Part shown: piece after piece, positions 43,861-53,286 of the stretch
How the letters are laid out: every line of letters starts with the position of its first letter
How positions within the stretch are numbered: position 1 is the stretch's first letter
Program-made: the position numbers and the translations under genes
From: Streptosporangiales bacterium
GTDB taxonomy: Bacteria > Actinomycetota > Actinomycetes > Streptosporangiales > WHST01
Direction of reading: 5' to 3'
Length of the DNA stretch: 53,286 nt
Assembly: GCA_009379955.1 (NCBI GenBank)
Contig: WHST01000035.1
Span: forward strand, 1 to 53,286
The notes under the pieces: model-generated
The model's input: the letters and a program-made list of their open reading frames with translations, nothing else
Database searches by the model: none
What the model was told of the DNA's origin: nothing

Positions 43861-44547
43861 ATGGCCAAGAACCCCGACCAGCCGAAGCGGCTCCAGCAGA
43901 TCAAGCGGTCCGCGCAGTTCCTCTGGGAGAAGAACAGGCGCGGCTACCTGTGGATCGCCCTCGGGCTCGTCGGCCCCGTCGTCGTCGCGCTGGCGATCGG
44001 GTACGCCCTCGACTACCTGCTCTACGCGATCTTCCTCGGCGTGCTCTCCGGCCTGACGGTCGCGATGTTCATCTTCGGCCAGCTCGTCCAGAAGGCCGCG
44101 TACAGCAACATCGAGGGCCAGACGGGCGCGGCCGCCGCCGTGCTCGAGGGGCTGCGCGGCGACTGGCAGGTGACGGCCGCCGTCGCGATCAACAAGGACC
44201 AGGACGTCATCCACCGCGCCGTCGGACGCCCCGGCGTCGTCCTCGTCGCCGAGGGCTCGTCCCCGCGGCTCGCCCGCCTGCTCGCGGCCGAGAAGAAGAA
44301 GATCGCCAGGGTCGCGTTCGACACCCCGATCTACGACCTCAGGTGCGGCACCGGCGACGACGAGGTGCCGCTCAAGAAGCTCCAGTCGCGCATCCTGAAG
44401 CTCCCCCGCAACCTCGACAAGAAAGAGGTGTCGGAGGTCAAGCGGCGGATGCGCGCACTCGGCAACAGCCCGCTGCCGATGCCCAAGGGCCCGCTGCCCA
44501 AGGGCGCCAGGCAGAAGATGCCGAAGATGCCCAAGGCCCAGCGCTGA
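43861..44547 (+). CDS. DUF4191 membrane protein (Rv2219-like)
   Basis: The 228-residue protein starts with a lysine-rich segment and has two adjacent helices (YLWIALGLVGPVVVALAIGYAL and LLYAIFLGVLSGLTVAMFIFG). A cytoplasmic domain has DWQVTAAVAINKDQDVIHRAVGR and a basic tail. It corresponds to the conserved membrane protein that follows lipA in mycobacteria and Streptomyces. TATCCT (43849-43854) lies 6 nt before the ATG, so it is leaderless. The RDD protein gene that usually follows is missing; the lanthipeptide cluster is there instead. Confidence 0.9.
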   Translation: MAKNPDQPKRLQQIKRSAQFLWEKNRRGYLWIALGLVGPVVVALAIGYALDYLLYAIFLGVLSGLTVAMFIFGQLVQKAAYSNIEGQTGAAAAVLEGLRGDWQVTAAVAINKDQDVIHRAVGRPGVVLVAEGSSPRLARLLAAEKKKIARVAFDTPIYDLRCGTGDDEVPLKKLQSRILKLPRNLDKKEVSEVKRRMRALGNSPLPMPKGPLPKGARQKMPKMPKAQR

Positions 44548-44861: not shown

Positions 44862-47585
44862 TTGGGATCCGTCCGCGACATCGCCGCGGCCGTCCGTCCG
44901 GAGCTCGCCTCGTACACCAGGGAGCTGCTCGCCACGGACGGCGACGCCTGGCACCTGGAGTCCCACGAGGTCTGGTGCACCGCGATCCCGCGGCACCGCG
45001 CGCTCGCGCCCCAGGGGTGGAAGATCCACGTCTCGGCGACGCCCGCGTCGGTCCACGAGGTGCTCGACGGTGCGGTGCCGGTGCTGCGCCGGCATGCGGT
45101 GGCGTTCAAGGTCGCGCGTGACCTCGACGCGGTCCGCTGGCTGACCGGTCGCGACTGCGACCGCGCGCTCGCGGGCAAGGTGCTCACCGTCTATCCCGCC
45201 GACGACGCCGCCTTCGTCGCGGTCGCGACCGACCTCCACGACGCCGTCGGCGCGCTGCCGGGACCCCGGATCCTCTCCGACCGCCCCTACGCACCCGGCA
45301 GCTCGATCCACTACCGGTACGGCGGCTTCCGCGGCGACGGGCAGCTCGACGACGACGGCGTCTACCGCCACCTGCTGACCGCGCCGGACGGCAGCACCAC
45401 GATCGACCGGCGCGAGGCCTGGTTCTCCGCGCCGTCCTGGGCGCCAGATCCTTTGCTAGCACAGCCGTTGCTAACACAGCCTTTGCTAGCACAGCCGTTG
45501 CAGGCAACCGCGTCACCGGCACAGTCGGACGCCGGCGCGGCCGTGCTCCTCGGCGACCGGTACGTCGTTCGCGGCGCCCTGCGACACTCCGCGAAGGGCG
45601 GCGTCTACCTGGCCCGCGACGAGCGCACCGGCGCCGACGTCGTGGTCAAGCACGCCAGGACCCACGCCGAGGTCGACAGCGCGGGACACGACGCGCGCGA
45701 CCTGTTGCGCAACGAGGCGCGCGCCCTCGAGGCGCTCGCCGGCGTCGCTCCGGTGCCGCGCTCGCTCGGTCTCTTCGAGCAGGACGGCGACGTCTTCCTC
45801 GCCCAGGAACGCCTGGCCGGACGTCCGCTGCGGTCCTGGGTGCACGAGCTCGCCGCCGCGCGTCCCGGCGTCCCACAGGTGTCCGCCTGGCCGGTCGCCC
45901 GCGCCCTGACCGCCGCGGTCGCGGCAGTCCACGGTGCGGGCCTCGTGCTGCGCGACCTCAGTCCGACCAACGTTCTCGTCGACGACGACGGCACCGTCCA
46001 CCTCGTCGACCTCGAGCTCGCCACCCCGGTCGGCGGCGTCGCGCGCCGCTCGGGCACGCCCGCCTACCAGGCGCCGGAGCACCACACCGGCGACGACCGC
46101 GTCACGGCGACGGTGGCCGAGGACCTCTACAGCCTCGGCTGCCTGCTGTTCCTGATCGCCACCGGCTGCGACCCGCTGCTGCCCGCCGACGACGGCGCCG
46201 GCCGGCGTCCGCTCGGCGACCGGCTGGCCGGCTGGCTCGACCTCGTCGCCGCGCACGGCGACTCCGCGGCAGCCGCCCGGCCGGCGATCCGCGGCCTCCT
46301 CGCCGCCGACCCGGCGTGCCGCTGGTCACTCGCCGACGTCGAGTCGTTCCTCGCCGCCCAGCCCGATCAGGTGGCGCCCGCCGTCCCGGTCACGGCTGCC
46401 GGCGTCACCCCGCCCGACCCCGCCCGGCTGCTGTCCGACGGCCTCGCGTACCTCCTCGACACGATGACCCCGGAACGCACGCGCCTGTGGCCGACCGGGT
46501 CGTTCGGCGGCCAGACCGACGCCGGCAACGTCCAGCACGGCGCGGCCGGCGTGCTCGTCACGCTCGCCGCCGCGATGCCGCACGCGACCGACGCGGCGAC
46601 GACCCGCGCCGTCGCCACCGCCGCGTCGTGGCTCACCCGCCAGGTGCCGCCACGGCCTCCGCGCCATCCGCTGCCCGGCCTGTACTTCGGTCGCGCCGGC
46701 GTCGCGTGGGCGCTCGCCGACGCGGGCAGCGCACTCGGCGACGACGCGCTCGTCGACGCCGCCGTGCACCGCCTCCTGCGGCTGCCCGCGGCCTGGCCCA
46801 ACCCCGACGTCGCGCACGGTCTCGCCGGCGCGTGCCTCGCCCACGTCCACCTCGCGCGCCGCACCGGCGACGAGCGTCTCGCCCGGCGGGCCGACGCCTA
46901 CGCCGACGCGCTGGCGGCCGCGGCCGACGAGGACGAGCTCGGCCCGTACTGGCGCATCCCCGCGGACTCCGACTCGGTGCTGGCCGGCAAGGTCCACCAC
47001 GGGTTCGCGCACGGCGCCGCCGGCATCGGCTACGCCCTGCTGGCCAACGGCCGCGACGCCGACGTCCGGCTCGCCGTCCGCACCGGCGACGCCCTGTGCC
47101 GCGCGGCGCAGGTCGACGGCGACGGCGCCGCCTGGTGGCCGGTCGGACAGCGGGAACCCACCCGGTTGCCGCACTGGTGCAGCGGCTCCTCGGGCATCGG
47201 CACCTTCCTGCTGCGCCTGTACGCGAGCACCGGCGAGCGACGCTTCGCCGACCACGCGATCGCCGCGGCCACCGCCGTGCACCGCTCGCGCTGGCAGTCG
47301 TCCCCCGCCGCCTGTCACGGGCTCGCGGGTGACGGCCAGTTCCTGCTCGACGCGGCCGACGTCCTCGTCGACCCGACCTACCACGCCCTGGCCGCCGACC
47401 TCGCCACCTGTCTCGCCGCACGGCACTGCGTCCGCGACGGCCGCGTGCTCGTGCCGGACGAGGGCGGCAGGGACGTCGTCGCCGACCACCAGGTCGGCGT
47501 CGCCGGCGTGGTCGCGTTCCTGACCCGCCTGCTGCACGGCGGTCCGCGGCCGTTCATGGTCGACGGGGAGGCCCGCCCGTGCTGA
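44862..47585 (+). CDS. lanL: class IV-type lanthipeptide synthetase (LanL)
   Basis: The 907-residue enzyme has three modules: an N-terminal lyase region (about 1-200), a kinase-like domain (about 225-470) with a glycine-rich loop, Lys263 in VVVKHAR, LRDLSPTN as catalytic loop and DLE as metal motif, and a LanC-like cyclase (about 520-900). The cyclase keeps Cys773 (HWCSGSSG) and the Cys818-His819 pair (ACHGLAG), the zinc ligands that separate class IV from class III. It would phosphorylate and eliminate Ser/Thr in the precursor, then join them to Cys. The TTG at 44862 has a strong GGGAGGA site 5 nt upstream. The lyase-kinase linker holds LLAQP repeats. Confidence 0.9.
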   Translation: MGSVRDIAAAVRPELASYTRELLATDGDAWHLESHEVWCTAIPRHRALAPQGWKIHVSATPASVHEVLDGAVPVLRRHAVAFKVARDLDAVRWLTGRDCDRALAGKVLTVYPADDAAFVAVATDLHDAVGALPGPRILSDRPYAPGSSIHYRYGGFRGDGQLDDDGVYRHLLTAPDGSTTIDRREAWFSAPSWAPDPLLAQPLLTQPLLAQPLQATASPAQSDAGAAVLLGDRYVVRGALRHSAKGGVYLARDERTGADVVVKHARTHAEVDSAGHDARDLLRNEARALEALAGVAPVPRSLGLFEQDGDVFLAQERLAGRPLRSWVHELAAARPGVPQVSAWPVARALTAAVAAVHGAGLVLRDLSPTNVLVDDDGTVHLVDLELATPVGGVARRSGTPAYQAPEHHTGDDRVTATVAEDLYSLGCLLFLIATGCDPLLPADDGAGRRPLGDRLAGWLDLVAAHGDSAAAARPAIRGLLAADPACRWSLADVESFLAAQPDQVAPAVPVTAAGVTPPDPARLLSDGLAYLLDTMTPERTRLWPTGSFGGQTDAGNVQHGAAGVLVTLAAAMPHATDAATTRAVATAASWLTRQVPPRPPRHPLPGLYFGRAGVAWALADAGSALGDDALVDAAVHRLLRLPAAWPNPDVAHGLAGACLAHVHLARRTGDERLARRADAYADALAAAADEDELGPYWRIPADSDSVLAGKVHHGFAHGAAGIGYALLANGRDADVRLAVRTGDALCRAAQVDGDGAAWWPVGQREPTRLPHWCSGSSGIGTFLLRLYASTGERRFADHAIAAATAVHRSRWQSSPAACHGLAGDGQFLLDAADVLVDPTYHALAADLATCLAARHCVRDGRVLVPDEGGRDVVADHQVGVAGVVAFLTRLLHGGPRPFMVDGEARPC
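45450..45499 (+). repeat. 15-nt tandem repeat encoding LLAQP units in lanL
   Basis: Three nearly perfect 15-nt copies and a partial fourth start at 45450, 45465, 45480 and 45495, alternating CCT/CCG before TTGCTAGCACAG. They encode LLAQP-LLTQP-LLAQP-LQ in the linker between the lyase and kinase domains. The unit keeps frame, so copy-number change would alter only linker length. The sequence is lower in GC than the surrounding gene. Confidence 0.8.
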
Positions 47586-49354
47586 CCAGGACGAGCTTCC
47601 GCTTCTCGCCCGCGGGCACGCGCGCCGCCTGCCTGGTCGCACGCGAGCCGGGCGAGTGGCGGGTCGAGTCGTGGTCGCTCGATCCCGTCGAGCCGGCGTT
47701 CACCAGCACCGAGCTCGCCGTCCGCGGACCCGCGAGCCAGGTGCTGCCACTCGACGGCGGCGCCGTCCTGTGCTGCCAGCCGGCGCCGAACGACGAGCGC
47801 CGTCACGAGATCACCCTCGTCCGGCCGGACGGCTCCGCGCGACGGATCGCCGCGCACCGCGCACTCGGCCTGCGGCTGCTCGACCACCCCCACGCCGGCG
47901 CCCTCGCGGTCGCCGTGAGCACCGACGGCGAGGCCGAGCTGTCGTCGAGCGTCTGGCTCGTGCGCGACGACGCACCCGCGCTCACCCACGCACTCACCGT
48001 CCCCGGCCTGCTCGCGGGCGGGAGCTGGCTCGACCATGGCGCGACGCGACTGGCGTTCACGCAGGCGCGCCTGGGACACCTCACCACCCTCGTCGCCGAC
48101 CTGTCCTCCGCATCGGTCGCGCCGCTCTGGCCGGATCTCTCCGGCGTACGGCTGCTGCTCGCCTCGCCAGGCGGTCGTCTGCTGCTCGCCGCCGACGACG
48201 AGCAGGCGATCGGCTGGGCGACCGAGGAGGGCGAGCTCCGCTGGTCGGCCGCGCTCGACGGCCGTCGTGCCGCACTCCCGCTCGCGGTCGACGTCTCGGG
48301 CACGCGGGTCGCCGTCCGCGTCGAGGATGGCGCACGCTCCGGGATCGCCGTGTACACGCCGCACGACGACGCACTCGCCGACCTGTCACTGCCCGCCGGC
48401 ACCGTCGGCGGCACCGCGTCGTGGCGCGCCGACTCGGTGCGCTTCCCGTTCGCGCCGCCCGGGCACCCCGCCGGCATCGCCGAGGTGCGCGTCGGCGACT
48501 CCCGGACGTTCCGCATGCCTGGCGCGTCCGCCGCGACCGACCGCCTCGCACCGCGCGTGGAGAGCTTCACCGGGCCCGACGGCGCCGTCGAGGCGATCGT
48601 CCACGGCGACTGGCGGCACGCTCCGGCCGTCGTCGTCGCCTTGCACGGCGGTCCCGAGGCCTGCTGGCGGATCGACGGCGACCCGTTCCTCGCCTCGCTC
48701 GCGGCCGACGGCGCCGCGGTCGTCGCGGTGAACCCCCGCGGCAGCCGCGGCTACCCCGGTGCCGGCGAGGCCGTCCGCGACGCGTGGGGCGGACCCGACC
48801 TCCGCGACGTCCTCACCGTCGCCACGGCGCTGACCGGCAGGCGCGGCAGGCCCGTGCGCCTCTTCGGCGCGAGCTACGGCGCGTTCCTCGCGCTGCTCGC
48901 GCTCGCGACCCGGCCGGAGCTGTGGGAGCGCGCCGCGGTCGTCGCGCCGTTCCTGTCCGGCGAACGGCTCTTCGCCGACGCGGGACCCCGCGTGCGCGCG
49001 CTGCTCGACCGGCTCGGCGGGCGGACGGTCTACACCGACGACCTCGGTCCGCGCGACGTCCTGCTGCTCGCCGACCGCATCGCCACGCCGCTGCTCCTGA
49101 TGCACGGCACGGACGACGACGTGATCCCGGTGCACCACTCCCGCGAGCTGCACGCGCGGCTGCGCGAGCGCGGCGCCGACGTCACGTACCTCGAGCTCAC
49201 CGACTCCGGCCACGACCCGCTCGCGGGTCCCCGTGCCGGAGCCGCCGCCGAGCGGCTGCGCGGCTTCCTCACCGAGGGAGTGCCGAGCGCCCCGGCCGTC
49301 GACCGCCACCACGGTCCGCGTGGTGGTACGCACCTAGCACTCGGAAGGAGGTGA
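47579..49354 (+). CDS. S9 prolyl-oligopeptidase-family peptidase
   Basis: The 591-residue serine peptidase has a beta-propeller N-terminal half and a C-terminal alpha/beta-hydrolase domain. Family marks are the oxyanion-region HGGPEACW, NPRGSRGYPG, Ser432 in FGASYGAF, an Asp in HGTDDDVIP and His545 in DSGHDPLAG. It has no signal peptide. It starts at GTG 47579, overlapping the lanL stop by 7 nt, and its last codons contain the ribosome-binding site of the precursor gene. POP-type enzymes process class III lanthipeptide leaders in other clusters. A similar leader-processing role here is inference. Confidence 0.9.
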   Translation: MLTRTSFRFSPAGTRAACLVAREPGEWRVESWSLDPVEPAFTSTELAVRGPASQVLPLDGGAVLCCQPAPNDERRHEITLVRPDGSARRIAAHRALGLRLLDHPHAGALAVAVSTDGEAELSSSVWLVRDDAPALTHALTVPGLLAGGSWLDHGATRLAFTQARLGHLTTLVADLSSASVAPLWPDLSGVRLLLASPGGRLLLAADDEQAIGWATEEGELRWSAALDGRRAALPLAVDVSGTRVAVRVEDGARSGIAVYTPHDDALADLSLPAGTVGGTASWRADSVRFPFAPPGHPAGIAEVRVGDSRTFRMPGASAATDRLAPRVESFTGPDGAVEAIVHGDWRHAPAVVVALHGGPEACWRIDGDPFLASLAADGAAVVAVNPRGSRGYPGAGEAVRDAWGGPDLRDVLTVATALTGRRGRPVRLFGASYGAFLALLALATRPELWERAAVVAPFLSGERLFADAGPRVRALLDRLGGRTVYTDDLGPRDVLLLADRIATPLLLMHGTDDDVIPVHHSRELHARLRERGADVTYLELTDSGHDPLAGPRAGAAAERLRGFLTEGVPSAPAVDRHHGPRGGTHLALGRR

Positions 49355-49358
49355 ACCA

Positions 49359-49526
49359 ATGAAGGAGCTCACGTTGGATGTAGCGGCGCTCGAGCGCCTG
49401 CCCGAGGTGGAGTCCGTCGAGCTCGGCGGATGCCACGGTTGCGGGCTGGCGACCTGTGTCGTCAGCTGCCTGAGCACGGGCGGCGTCCACGTCGGAGTCG
49501 GTATCGGTATCGGCGTCGACCTCTGA
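49359..49526 (+). CDS. lanA: lanthipeptide precursor peptide
   Basis: A 55-residue peptide with a near-perfect AAGGAGGTGA ribosome-binding site 5 nt upstream and lying directly after the LanL and protease genes. The leader begins MKELTLDVAALERLPEV and ends near SVELGG; the LPE-type motif is seen in class IV leaders. The candidate core runs from Cys25 to Leu55: CHGCGLATCVVSCLSTGG, followed by an alternating VHVGVGIGIGVDL tail. It has four Cys (25, 28, 33, 37) and four Ser/Thr (32, 36, 39, 40). The single proline is Pro15. It has no match I can name, so ring pattern and activity are unknown. Confidence 0.85.
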   Translation: MKELTLDVAALERLPEVESVELGGCHGCGLATCVVSCLSTGGVHVGVGIGIGVDL

Positions 49527-49563: not shown

Positions 49564-49591
49564 GTCGGCCGCGCCAGAAGGCGCGGCCGAC
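49564..49591 (+). terminator. strong hairpin after precursor gene
   Basis: A perfect 12-bp stem GTCGGCCGCGCC (49564-49575) and GGCGCGGCCGAC (49580-49591) with an AGAA loop follows the lanA stop by 37 nt. No U-run follows. It probably attenuates transcription into the exporter genes or stabilises the short lanA transcript. Confidence 0.75.
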
Positions 49592-49675: not shown

Positions 49676-51412
49676 ATGGCCACGACCCCCGTCACGTCGA
49701 CGAATGGCACGGACAGGTTGCTGCTCGTCACGTTGCGTGCCCAACCCGGCTGGCTGGCGGTCACCGTCCTCGCCGGCCTGGTCTCGGCCGGTGGCCAGCT
49801 GCTCCTCCCGTACGCGATGGGCGGAGCGCTCGACGCCGCGCTCGCGGGCGGTGCGGGACTCGCCGGTGGCGTCGCCCTGCTCGGCGTGGTGATCGTCACC
49901 GTGACGGCCGGCGACGTCCTGGCCCAGATCGCCGGCACCGCGGGCGTGGCCGGCACGACGGCGTGGATCCGCCGCCGGGTGCTCGCGAACCTGCTCGGCC
50001 TCGGCCTCCCCGGCCGCAACGTCTACCCGCCGGGCGACGCCGTCACCCGCCTCACCGCGGGCTCGGCGCTGGCCGGCCGGGTCGTCCCCCTCGTCCTCTC
50101 GGCGGTCACCACGGCCGCGACCGCGCTCGCGGCGCTCGTCCTGCTCGGCCTGCTCGACTGGACGCTGCCGATCACGCTCGTCGCCGGCCTGCTGGTCGGC
50201 GTCCTGCTGCTGCGCCCGTTCACCCGGCAGGCGACGACGGCGTTCGAGGAGTACCAGACGGCGCAGGGCGACATCGCCAGCCGCCTCGTCGACGCGCTCG
50301 GCGGGCTCCGGACGATCCGCGCCTCGGGCACCGCCGACCGCGAGGTCGACCGGGTACTCGGCCCGCTGCCGACCCTGCGCGACTCGGGGCTGCGCACCTG
50401 GACGCTCCAGCGGCGGCTCGCGTGGACGTTCGGGCTGCTGATCCGCGTCCTGCAGGTGGCGGTGCTCGCCGCTGCCGGCTGGGCCGTGAGCCAGGGCCGG
50501 CTGACGCCCGGCGAGCTGATCACGGCGGTCGGGTACTCGACCATCGCCCTGCAGGCCGTCGAGCAGATCGACCTGTTCGTCGAGCTCGTCCAGGTGCGGG
50601 CGGGCGCGACCCGCGTGCGACCGCTCATGCACCGGCCACATACCGTCGCGCCGGAGGTGCGCCTGCCCGACGGCGGCGGGGAGATCGAGCTGCGCGACGT
50701 CACTGTGCGCCTCGACGACCGCGTCGTCCTCGACGACTGCGACCTGCACGTCCCCGCCGGGTCGACGACCGCCGTCGTCGGTCGAAGCGGCTCGGGCAAG
50801 TCGGTCCTCGTCGGCCTGCTCGGACGCCTCGTCGAGCCGACAGCGGGCGAGGTGCTCGTCGACGGCTGCCCGGTCTCGGCCGTCGCGGACACCGACCTCA
50901 GGCAGGCCGTGGCGTACGCGTTCGAGCGTCCGGTGCTCGTCGGCGAGACCGTCGGCGAGGCGATCGGCTACGGGCTCCCCCGGGCGGCCGCCAGGTTCGA
51001 CCACACCACGGTGACGACCGCCGCGCGCACCGCGCTCGCCGACCGCGTCGTGCGCCGGCTCCCGCTCGCGTACGACAACCCGTTGCGCGACACCCCGATG
51101 TCGGGTGGCGAACGCCAGCGGGTGGGGCTGGCCCGCGCGGTCGCAGCGCGGCCGCGCATCCTCGTCCTCGACGACGCGACGTCGAGCCTCGACACCGCGA
51201 CCGAGGTCGAGCTCCAGGCCAACCTCGTCCGGGCGCTACCCGAGCGCACCCGCGTCGTCGTGACCCACCGCGCGCGGACGGCCGCGCACGCCGACCAGGT
51301 CGCGTGGCTCGACGACGGGCGGGTCCGCGCGGTCGGCACCCACGCCGAGCTGTGGCGCGACCGCGCGTACCGCGCGCTGTTCACCGGCGACGAGCCAGGG
51401 GCGGCGCCGTGA
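49676..51412 (+). CDS. ABC exporter half-transporter 1 (LanT-type)
   Basis: The 578-residue protein fuses a six-helix exporter membrane domain to an ATPase domain. ATPase motifs are Walker A GRSGSGKS, signature MSGGERQRVGLARA, Walker B ILVLDDATSSLD, and a C-terminal VVTHRARTA switch. No C39 peptidase domain is present, so leader cleavage must use another protease. The ATG at 49676 has GGAGAAG 9 nt upstream. A GTG at 49652 is an alternative adding 8 residues. The stop overlaps the GTG of the next half-transporter. Confidence 0.9.
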   Translation: MATTPVTSTNGTDRLLLVTLRAQPGWLAVTVLAGLVSAGGQLLLPYAMGGALDAALAGGAGLAGGVALLGVVIVTVTAGDVLAQIAGTAGVAGTTAWIRRRVLANLLGLGLPGRNVYPPGDAVTRLTAGSALAGRVVPLVLSAVTTAATALAALVLLGLLDWTLPITLVAGLLVGVLLLRPFTRQATTAFEEYQTAQGDIASRLVDALGGLRTIRASGTADREVDRVLGPLPTLRDSGLRTWTLQRRLAWTFGLLIRVLQVAVLAAAGWAVSQGRLTPGELITAVGYSTIALQAVEQIDLFVELVQVRAGATRVRPLMHRPHTVAPEVRLPDGGGEIELRDVTVRLDDRVVLDDCDLHVPAGSTTAVVGRSGSGKSVLVGLLGRLVEPTAGEVLVDGCPVSAVADTDLRQAVAYAFERPVLVGETVGEAIGYGLPRAAARFDHTTVTTAARTALADRVVRRLPLAYDNPLRDTPMSGGERQRVGLARAVAARPRILVLDDATSSLDTATEVELQANLVRALPERTRVVVTHRARTAAHADQVAWLDDGRVRAVGTHAELWRDRAYRALFTGDEPGAAP

Positions 51413-53286
51413 TCGTCGCGGGGATGCGGCTCCTGCTGCAGGGACTGCGCGGTCAGCGGGCGTCGCTCGCCTGGCTGGTGTTCTGGTCCCTGGTCGAGGC
51501 GGTCCCCGCGCTGCTGACGGGCAAGTTCCTCGCCCTCGCGCTCGACGACGGGTTCCTCGTCGGCCGGCCCGTCACCGGCGTCACCTGGCTCGGTGCGCTG
51601 CTCGCCACGATGGCCGTCGCCGCGGTCGGGACGGCGATGGTCTACCCGCGGCTCGCGGCCGTGGTCGAGCCGCTGCGCGACGCACTGGTCAGGCAGGTCG
51701 TCGACGCGAGCCTGCACACCGACGGCCACGAGGCCAACCCCGCGGCCGTCTCGCGACTGACCGGGCAGGTCGAGACGACACGTCGCCTGGTCTCGGCGCT
51801 GCTGCGTACGGCACGGCAGTTCGGCCTCGCCCTGGTCGCGACCATCATCGGTGTCACCGTGCTCGCGCCCGCGCTGCTCCTGGTCGTGGCGCCGCCGCTC
51901 GTCGTCTCGCTCGCCATCTTCGTGGTCATGCTGCCGCGCCTGGTCGACCGGCACCGCGACGTCGTCCTCGCCGACGAGGCGGTGGCGCGCGACACCACGA
52001 ACGTCCTGCAGGGCCTGCGCGACGTGCTCGCGTGCCAGGCGTCGCGACGGGCCCGTACGGACGTCGGGGCGTCCATCGACCGGCAGGCGTCGGCGAGCCG
52101 CGCGCTCGCGCGGACGTCGTCCATGCGCATCATCGTGGTCGCCGTCGGCGTCCAGCTGCCCCTCGTCGCACTCATCGCGTCCGGACCGTTCCTCGTCCGC
52201 AACGGCTGGGTGACGCCGGGCGGCCTCGTCGCCGCCGCGGGCTACCTCACCGTGACCCTGGCGCCCGCCATGCAGGCGCTCGTCCAGGTCGCGGGCGCGT
52301 GGGGGCTGCAGCTCGCGGTCGTGCTCGCACGCCTCGCCGAGACCGTGCGGCGTCCCGACCTCGCGCCCGACGTCCGTGCCACCACCGTCGGCCGGGGCCA
52401 CCGCTCGCCCTCCAGCCACACCATCGTGGCGCGCGGGCTGACGTTCGCGTACGGACCCGACGCCGAGCCGCTCATCGCCGGGCTCGACCTGACGATCCGC
52501 GGCGAGGAGCACCTCGCCGTCGTCGGGCCGAGCGGCATCGGCAAGTCCACGCTCGCGGACCTGTTGTCCGGGCTGCTGCCGCCGCAGGAGGGCACCGTCC
52601 ACCTCGGTGGCGTCGACCTCACGGCCTGGGACCCCGCGGCGCTGCGGCACACCGTCGCGCTGATCCCGCAGGAGGCGTACGTCTTCCGCGGCACGCTGCG
52701 CGAGAACGTCGCCTACCTCGCTCCCGACGTCCCCGACTGGCGGCTCGGCCAGATCGCCGACGAGCTCGGCGCCGACGGGCTGGTGCGCCGCATCGGCGGC
52801 TGGGACGCCCTGACCCGACCGGCCGACCTCGGCACCGGCGAGCGCCAGCTCGTCGCACTCGTCCGCGCGTACGCGAGCCACGCCGCCGTCGTGGTGCTGG
52901 ACGAGGCGACCTGCCACCTCGACCCGGCCGCCGAGGAGCGCGTGGAACGCGCCTTCGCCCGCCGGCCGGGCACGCTGATCGTGATCGCGCACCGGATCAG
53001 CTCCGCGATGCGCGCCGACCGCATCCTCGTCCTCGACGGCGACGCCGTGCAGTCCGGCAGCCACGACGACCTGCTCACCAGATCCCCGCTCTACAAGGAA
53101 CTGGTCGGCTACTGGGGCGCCCCGGCGGAGACCCCGACCCCTCCCCTGCTGATCACGTTAACCTCGATTGTTCACGTGGGGTGGTGGTGTGGCCGTGGTG
53201 GGGTGTTGTGGGGTGTGGTTGAGGTGTTTGCGGGGTGGGGGGTAGGGCGGTGGCCCGGTTGTCGCCTGGGGTGGGCGCCGGTTCCA
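51409..53286 (+). CDS. ABC exporter half-transporter 2 (LanT-type), 3' end open at window edge
   Basis: The GTG at 51409 overlaps the stop of the first exporter (GTGA), making a coupled heterodimer. The protein has a membrane domain (WLVFWSLVEAVPALL, LVATIIGVTVLAPALLLVV) and an ATPase with Walker A GPSGIGKS and Walker B VVVLDEATCHLD. The signature LGTGERQLVALVRA is degenerate (LGTGE for LSGGQ), which suggests one weakened ATPase site. The family-like end is near YKELVGYWGAP. The frame then stays open without a stop to 53286 through GT-rich sequence. The last ~40 codons are probably not native protein. Confidence 0.85.
   Translation, partial: MIVAGMRLLLQGLRGQRASLAWLVFWSLVEAVPALLTGKFLALALDDGFLVGRPVTGVTWLGALLATMAVAAVGTAMVYPRLAAVVEPLRDALVRQVVDASLHTDGHEANPAAVSRLTGQVETTRRLVSALLRTARQFGLALVATIIGVTVLAPALLLVVAPPLVVSLAIFVVMLPRLVDRHRDVVLADEAVARDTTNVLQGLRDVLACQASRRARTDVGASIDRQASASRALARTSSMRIIVVAVGVQLPLVALIASGPFLVRNGWVTPGGLVAAAGYLTVTLAPAMQALVQVAGAWGLQLAVVLARLAETVRRPDLAPDVRATTVGRGHRSPSSHTIVARGLTFAYGPDAEPLIAGLDLTIRGEEHLAVVGPSGIGKSTLADLLSGLLPPQEGTVHLGGVDLTAWDPAALRHTVALIPQEAYVFRGTLRENVAYLAPDVPDWRLGQIADELGADGLVRRIGGWDALTRPADLGTGERQLVALVRAYASHAAVVVLDEATCHLDPAAEERVERAFARRPGTLIVIAHRISSAMRADRILVLDGDAVQSGSHDDLLTRSPLYKELVGYWGAPAETPTPPLLITLTSIVHVGWWCGRGGVLWGVVEVFAGWGVGRWPGCRLGWAPVP
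53158..53286 (-). other. partial low-GC3 minus-strand frame at right edge
   Basis: The minus strand is open from the window edge to TAA at 53158-53160, encoding a Pro/His/Thr-rich C-terminus (YPPPRKHLNHTPQHPTTATP). The base composition here differs sharply from the exporter gene. It could be the tail of a convergent gene or of a mobile element. Too little is visible to assign it. Confidence 0.3.

Follow-up and report, generated by a model that had tools for sequence, protein, structure and literature searches.

A class IV lanthipeptide precursor of a Streptosporangiales bacterium whose rings probably run from cysteine to a following serine or threonine

A 55-residue open reading frame in the genome of a Streptosporangiales bacterium is predicted to be a genuine class IV lanthipeptide precursor (LanA). 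The reading of its product that we hold to be probable is that of a self-contained operon making a peptide in which most rings are reversed, with each Cys preceding the Ser or Thr that it joins, and in which the C-terminal tail is exocyclic. The gene lies in a 53,286-nucleotide stretch of contig WHST01000035.1, referred to as the window. Its translation, MKELTLDVAALERLPEVESVELGGCHGCGLATCVVSCLSTGGVHVGVGIGIGVDL followed by a stop codon, confirms the positions of Cys25, Cys28, Cys33 and Cys37 and of Thr32, Ser36, Ser39 and Thr40 given in a first-pass annotation. That annotation had found the ring direction not obvious; this was the right question, and the probable answer from the sequence is Cys before Ser/Thr. 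The features of the locus are summarized in Table 1.

Table 1. Features of the class IV locus in the window
Feature	Position	Strand	Remarks
LanL, class IV lanthionine synthetase, 907 aa	44862..47585	+	TTG start, GGAGG upstream
LanL domains			lyase aa 27-203, kinase aa 245-440, LanC cyclase aa 556-894
LanL putative zinc ligands			Cys773, Cys818, His819
S9 (prolyl-oligopeptidase family) peptidase, candidate leader peptidase	47579..49354	+	PF00326 1.5e-19
Ribosome-binding site AAGGAGGTGA	49345..49354	+	4 nt upstream of ATG; overlaps peptidase stop
LanA precursor, 55 aa + stop	49359..49526	+	
Leader, aa 1-24	49359..49430	+	LDVAALERLPE recognition-type motif; candidate cleavage after Pro15; core boundary predicted
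Cys/Ser/Thr core, aa 25-42 (CHGCGLATCVVSCLSTGG)	49431..49484	+	
C-terminal tail, aa 43-55 (VHVGVGIGIGVDL)	49485..49523	+	partly 6-bp tandem repeat 49498-49513
GC-rich hairpin, 12-bp stem, 4-nt loop	49564..49591	+	between lanA and ABC genes; fold z -3.2
ABC exporter, membrane + ATPase domains	49676..51412	+	PF00664, PF00005
Second ABC exporter half	51409..53124	+	PF00005 above cut-off, PF00664 below cut-off

The gene cluster

The gene order LanL, S9 peptidase, LanA, ABC, ABC reads as that of a self-contained class IV cluster. The Pfam domains RamC_N, Pkinase and LANC_like occur in one LanL protein, which reaches 963 bits with the class IV model NF038150 (cut-off 650) and 471 bits with the class III model, under its 575 cut-off. 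Cys773, Cys818 and His819 (HWCSG, ACHG) are invariant across four aligned LanLs, and this zinc-type CCH triad of the cyclase is described as missing in class III in the portions of two articles drawn on here (PMC7268733; PMC11251773). Domain content, model score and putative zinc triad together mark the window LanL as a class IV synthetase. Its top PDB match is 8car, an entry described as a serine/threonine protein kinase. With the neighbouring LanL above the class IV cut-off and the precursor inside the operon, the earlier proposal that the peptide is a LanL substrate is upheld.

In the S9 peptidase, the Ser of GASYG, the Asp of HGTDDD and the His of SGH fall opposite the catalytic region when the protein is aligned with acylaminoacyl-releasing enzyme, from among its PDB relatives, and we take these three residues to be catalytic. 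The hairpin downstream of lanA has no T-run, and no terminator-like site was found at 49564..49591; a comparable inverted repeat occupies the same position in a congener, and the hairpin may have a role in setting the level of the lanA transcript relative to the ABC genes. Homology of the second ABC half reaches about residue 572, while its frame stays open up to the contig end; its true stop is either outside the window or hidden by a frameshift or an assembly end effect. Between 53124 and 53286 the open frame crosses low-complexity, GT-rich sequence. Domain scans of the cluster, which were not aimed at immunity genes, flagged none. The neighbouring gene at 43861-44547 presumably encodes a DUF4191 protein.

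Relatives of the precursor

Two other genomes of the same genus, G001 and G002, were compared with the window. G001 has the same gene block, likewise beside lipB, lipA and the counterpart of the gene at 43861-44547, and its precursor is MKELTLDVAALERLPEVESVELGCGCGLATCVVSCLSTGGVAVDASVDVEV. The LanLs of the window and G001 are 66% identical and the peptidases 53%. A gap-free comparison of 23 leader codons and 17 core codons in the two precursor genes gives 9 synonymous and 0 nonsynonymous differences. Residues 1-23 of the leader are thus identical, and its motif is common to the Kitasatospora-type precursors described below. The junction between leader and core differs (GGCHGC in the window and GCGC in G001), by which CxxC becomes CxC. 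No match to the precursor was found in G002, a genome that is 77% complete. In the congener, matches to the upstream HAD-family gene (locus L043, 17513-18282) are split between two frames, which looks like a frameshift or an assembly error.

A precursor search of 345 genomes of the order at E <= 0.001 returned G000, G001 and weak matches in G184 and G220; the G184 match proved to be a precursor of a different type (L094). Wider searches, covering 394 genomes from the class and 396 from the phylum, gave no further strong match; the best E outside G000 was 0.0015, and the weak match in G006 is a precursor of the MELDINALEMLPA type. Of the weak matches in relatives of the window genome, L005 and L009 are real minus-strand precursors (loci L059 and L105), and L006 and L010-L012 lie inside long frames and were dropped.

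Of 297 genomes of the order searched for LanL, 107 have a match at E <= 1e-150. From a larger number of LanL matches, 79 regions of the order were read, and a leader regular expression combined with a ribosome-binding site gave precursor candidates at 75 of them, 99 in all. Of the 79 loci, 56 have a detected S9 peptidase. A precursor accompanies it at 53 loci, and at 51 of these all precursors begin more than 1500 nt past LanL, i.e. behind the peptidase. A LanL alignment search provided a second set of 80 named loci, the best 80 of 576 confirmed relatives, with a precursor at 66 of them. Looser patterns applied to 10 empty loci gave candidates in L150, L157, L140 and L113, which were kept out of the statistics.

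In a FastTree analysis the window LanL groups with that of G001 (support 1.0), then with L108/L109 (0.87) and then with 14 LanLs (0.99), mostly from Kitasatospora, Streptomyces and Yinghuangia. A precursor was found at twelve of these 14 loci, all but L177 and L195, and it combines the same leader with a C..TC...TC...T core. To judge by sequence, the nearest precursors found among the best 80 of 576 relatives are of this Kitasatospora/Yinghuangia type, e.g. MENFETDLAALQDLPETEAVELGGHGGGCQFTCLILTCLIFTIS (L164, Kitasatospora), with a DLAALQ.LPE.E.VELGG-HG leader and the core layout of the window. They mostly have three core Cys versus four in the window, and they end 2-3 residues past the last Thr, with no V/I-G tail. 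Ten aligned precursors share invariant A10, L11, L14, P15, E16, E21, L22, G23 and C37. An isolated position of the core is not supported: leader and Cys/Ser/Thr pattern both place it in a class IV group that can be recognised.

Several of the loci read encode more than one peptide. L094 (G184), L107 (G103), L116 (G172) and L115 (G144) each have three or four differing precursors per LanL, several of them built mostly of C-x-x-T units, e.g. CDYTCWFTCFWTED in L094. L159 (Kutzneria sp. 744) has five consecutive class IV precursors at one LanL, with varying Cys/Thr cores. L183 (Streptomyces sp. DvalAA-43) has a two-Cys precursor ending in ITACRWHTSGC, 114 nt past the assumed end of LanL. A class IV product with three dehydrations and two possibly overlapping rings is described from DvalAA-43 in the part of the source used here, and it may come from a cluster other than L183 (PMC9576775).

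Ring direction

Ring direction was assessed with a pairing test, in which a Cys is pairable with a Ser or Thr lying 2-12 residues N-terminal (ordinary direction) or C-terminal (reversed direction) to it. All four Cys of the window core are pairable in reverse, against one of four forward, or two of four if leader Ser19 is counted. This core says little by itself, for 2.5% (with the tail) to 8% (without it) of shuffles match the split. The test was read mainly on 57 non-redundant LanL cores of the order, including those of the window and congener; 20 venezuelin-like and 11 MSF-leader precursors (three and six non-redundant cores) were set aside before the main count.

Among the 57 cores, 223 of 228 Cys are pairable in reverse versus 167.6-172 (sd 6-7.3) after shuffling. 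Ser or Thr stands at exactly Cys+3 for 139 Cys where 53.5 are expected, and for 112 of 187 under a stricter redundancy limit. Forward pairing varies with the number of residues allowed before the first Cys: 140 versus 167 shuffled with four, 172 versus 173 with eight and 184 versus 172 (sd 6.7) with 12. An apparent depletion of forward pairing is gone once leader residues are counted; the reverse excess is robust and the forward depletion is not. Every Cys is pairable in reverse in 52 of the 57 cores, versus five forward, or 19 with eight leader residues.

Ser/Thr is as enriched at -1 as at +3 because the units are tandem (CxxTCxxT). The core ends help to break the tie in favour of +3: in 38 of 57 cores a Ser/Thr follows the last Cys at +3, and in 5 of 57 one precedes the first Cys at -1. 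The first Cys has Ser/Thr at -2 to -7 in 33 of 57 cores, often a leader Ser/Thr at -5. The +3 rule is not shown by the three venezuelin-like or the six MSF-leader cores. Cores of other orders agree more weakly. There, 48 loci gave 44 precursors after four artefact ORFs were dropped, and removal of 13 venezuelin-like precursors left 31, of which 19 are non-redundant; in these, 62 of 70 Cys are pairable in reverse versus 50.6 shuffled (sd 3.7; 0 of 200 shuffles) and 46 forward versus 49.8. In a small, uncurated class II control from the same order (five precursors, four non-redundant, from 30 LanM loci), 15 of 15 Cys are pairable forward and six in reverse.

Reversed closure by a LanL has a precedent in venezuelin, for which three reversed rings (Cys32-Dhb43, Cys34-Dhb39 and Cys45-Dha49) and one ordinary ring (Cys50-Dhb31) were proposed (PMC2843593). 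This topology is a proposal for which the authors wanted NMR confirmation, as stated in the portion of the article drawn on here (PMC2843593). In the window, two of the four Cys fit +3, Cys28 fits +4 and Cys25 is without an obvious partner. The pairs of Cys28, Cys33 and Cys37 match the C..T, C...T and C...T of Kitasatospora-type cores. Most of those cores lack an equivalent of Cys25, which shifts to CxC in the congener and may therefore be a free thiol, part of a disulfide or joined to Ser39.

A maturation route can be proposed on this basis. LanL would bind the leader through LDVAALERLPE and would phosphorylate and eliminate Thr32, Ser36 and Thr40, perhaps also Ser39. The cyclase would then join each Cys to a dehydro residue on its C-terminal side, giving Cys28-Thr32, Cys33-Ser36 and Cys37-Thr40 (or Ser39). 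Leader cleavage by the S9 peptidase, with the bond after Pro15 as a plausible site, would be followed by further trimming that exposes the core, and the ABC pair would export the product. The tail would remain as an exocyclic, strand-like extension with weak sequence constraint in the genus.

The principal alternative, which we consider unlikely although it deserves weight, is that the rings close in the ordinary direction, from Thr32 to Cys37 and from Ser19 to Cys25 or Cys28, with the other Cys in disulfides or as free thiols and Ser39 and Thr40 dehydrated or untouched. In most known Lan/MeLan bridges the Ser/Thr precedes the Cys that it joins, as stated in part of a recent article (PMC11251773). 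The five-residue spacing of Thr32 and Cys37 is sufficient, Ser19 is conserved in the congener, and the 19 cores that could pair every Cys forward fit this direction once leader residues are counted. However, ordinary closure leaves at least two window Cys unpaired, the order-wide forward count reaches at most the 184 given above against 223 of 228 in reverse, and the other orders also favour reverse. Reversed rings remain the preferred reading.

The C-terminal tail

The first-pass annotation had described a 13-residue tail of alternating Val/Ile and Gly without Cys. Residues 43-55 indeed have no Cys, and no Ser or Thr; the alternation itself is loose (V-H, V-G, V-G, I-G, I-G, V-D, L). In length the tail is an outlier, with 15 residues after the last Cys, Ser or Thr versus at most five in 99 other precursors. 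It has six V/I at every second position, whereas no other sequence among 186 precursor calls has more than four; this set contains duplicates and at least five ORFs judged artefacts. The V/I-G tail occurs in none of the 12 precursors of the 14-LanL group. That no named lanthipeptide has such a tail agrees with the precursor sets and with the literature found, within their limited scope. In the precursor of L097 (duplicate L133), 18 residues follow the last Cys (DVSAVETDPETGATHGHM), a stretch equal in length to that of the window precursor and containing Ser/Thr.

The congener tail is VAVDASVDVEV. Both tails place a hydrophobic residue near every second position and have acidic-hydrophobic ends (VDL and VEV), while residue identity is nearly lost. 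Part of the window tail is a TCGGTA repeat, and among 5000 codon shuffles 15 attain the period-6 self-match of this tail. Since V/I-G is not conserved even within the genus, no part of the precursor would be less constrained than the tail, which looks like a rapidly changing addition and not like the signature of the precursor. The two sequences would most simply reflect slippage, combined with weak selection that favours a strand-like pattern.

It is also conceivable, though we think it improbable, that the tail and not the ring region is the functional novelty, i.e. a C-terminal follower or a membrane- or strand-forming segment in which V/I alternation is selected. Its presence in both gene-bearing species, in the same every-other hydrophobic register and with the VDL/VEV end, is in line with this. 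However, identity is nearly lost between the congeners while 40 leader and core residues are unchanged, the 6-bp repeat fits slippage, n is 2, and no other precursor of the order set has the tail. A fast-changing tail is the reading kept here.

Leader processing

The cluster encodes an S9 peptidase and the leader contains a Pro, and the peptidase probably acts on the leader in the manner of FlaP. In flavipeptin biosynthesis the S9 prolyl oligopeptidase FlaP, likewise encoded in the cluster, cuts the modified peptide after Pro(-12), according to the part of the source used (PMC10885120). The flavipeptin synthetase is of class III, whereas the window has a LanL, and by inspection its 55-residue sequence has no class III labionin motif SxxSx2-5C, as this motif is defined in part of PMC11251773. 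Across precursors, the comparison of leader Pro with peptidase presence (61/78 vs 14/22; Fisher p 0.17) shows no significant association.

A double-glycine leader, cut at GG (residues 23-24) by a C39 peptidase on the exporter, is very improbable. ELGG does immediately precede the first Cys in the window. However, the Pfam hits of the two ABC proteins include no C39 peptidase domain, only one Gly precedes the first Cys of the congener precursor, and a separate S9 peptidase gene is present. Because the C39 domain is missing and GG is not kept in the congener, GG before the core is not likely to be the cut site.

Authenticity and family assignment of the precursor

That the gene is a chance Cys-rich ORF can be dismissed: GC-rich DNA yields many long spurious ORFs and an antisense chance match to the precursor exists in the same genome, but the strong ribosome-binding site, the operon position and the congener ortholog, whose 40 aligned codons differ by 9 synonymous and 0 nonsynonymous changes, refute this. 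Two weak matches in the same genome, C69 and C113, were considered as second copies. The C69 ORF is antisense to another gene, presumably that of ribosomal protein S16, and was rejected as a chance match; the C113 match (E 0.96) lies within a 630-residue frame.

Against the VenA family model NF038147 the precursor scores 25 bits (E 1.7e-05, residues 6-39), below the curated cut-off of 35 bits, and it has no match at E 0.1 to the ALQxL family model NF038157 (cut-off 19 bits). It is therefore filed in neither family, although it probably works like both. No Pfam family was found for the window precursor or for five relatives.

Comparison with known systems

Venezuelin (VenA/VenL) resembles the proposed product in being made by a LanL, in having four Cys and in the Cys-first direction of three of its four proposed rings, as described in the portion of the article drawn on (PMC2843593). 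The window core is without the LLTLLNTVC-type stretch of VenA-like precursors. The same portion describes a ven cluster with no recognised protease and with the exporter ATPase and permease as separate genes, unlike the window (PMC2843593). The one Kitasatospora/Yinghuangia-type precursor scanned singly passes the VenA cut-off with 46.6 bits, whereas that of the window does not.

The ALQxL family (e.g. Planomonospora) has the gene order LanL, S9, LanA, ABC, ABC and tandem C-x-x-[ST] cores that resemble that of the window. Its leaders are of the MELDINALDMLPA type, and at L059, L107 and L094, the three loci with scanned precursors, LanL is 43-49% identical to the window LanL.

SflA of Streptomyces, which was compared by description, is a class IV product like that predicted for the window. 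An AplP-like metalloprotease whose gene lies outside the cluster cleaves its leader, according to part of the source (PMC10885120). The genome of Kitasatospora setae is reported in part of another article to have two class IV clusters, one of them called identical to the SflA cluster (PMC11117518). SflA may thus overlap the relatives of the window group, though the PDLLK cleavage motif reported for it is seen in none of the precursors found here.

Significance

Few class IV lanthipeptides have been characterised; part of one report counts two earlier members and adds two (PMC9576775). In the literature surveyed, where subscription papers were thinly covered and the supplements of PMC7268733 were outside the scope, no description was found of this core, of its Kitasatospora-type relatives or of the +3 rule.

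More tentatively than for the window itself, and as a possibility that we rate somewhat short of probable, a large part of the class IV lanthipeptides (the ALQxL type and the window group) could be reversed-ring ladders that run from Cys to Ser/Thr at +3 or +4. The LanL cyclases of this clade would then be dedicated to Cys-first closure, and the window peptide would be a ladder of three to four rungs carrying a strand-like, V/I-rich tail. The tail, which looks fast-changing, is of lesser importance than the ring rule. From the starting point of a single core of unclear ring direction, Cys followed by Ser/Thr at +3 or +4 emerges as a testable rule that fits many precursors. This rule opposes the working assumption of a 2024 topology predictor that Cys joins a preceding Ser/Thr; in the part of that article used here, prediction starts from the preceding Ser/Thr and C*[ST] is mentioned as occasional (PMC11251773). 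If the rule is true, automated prediction would assign the rings of many class IV peptides the wrong way round.
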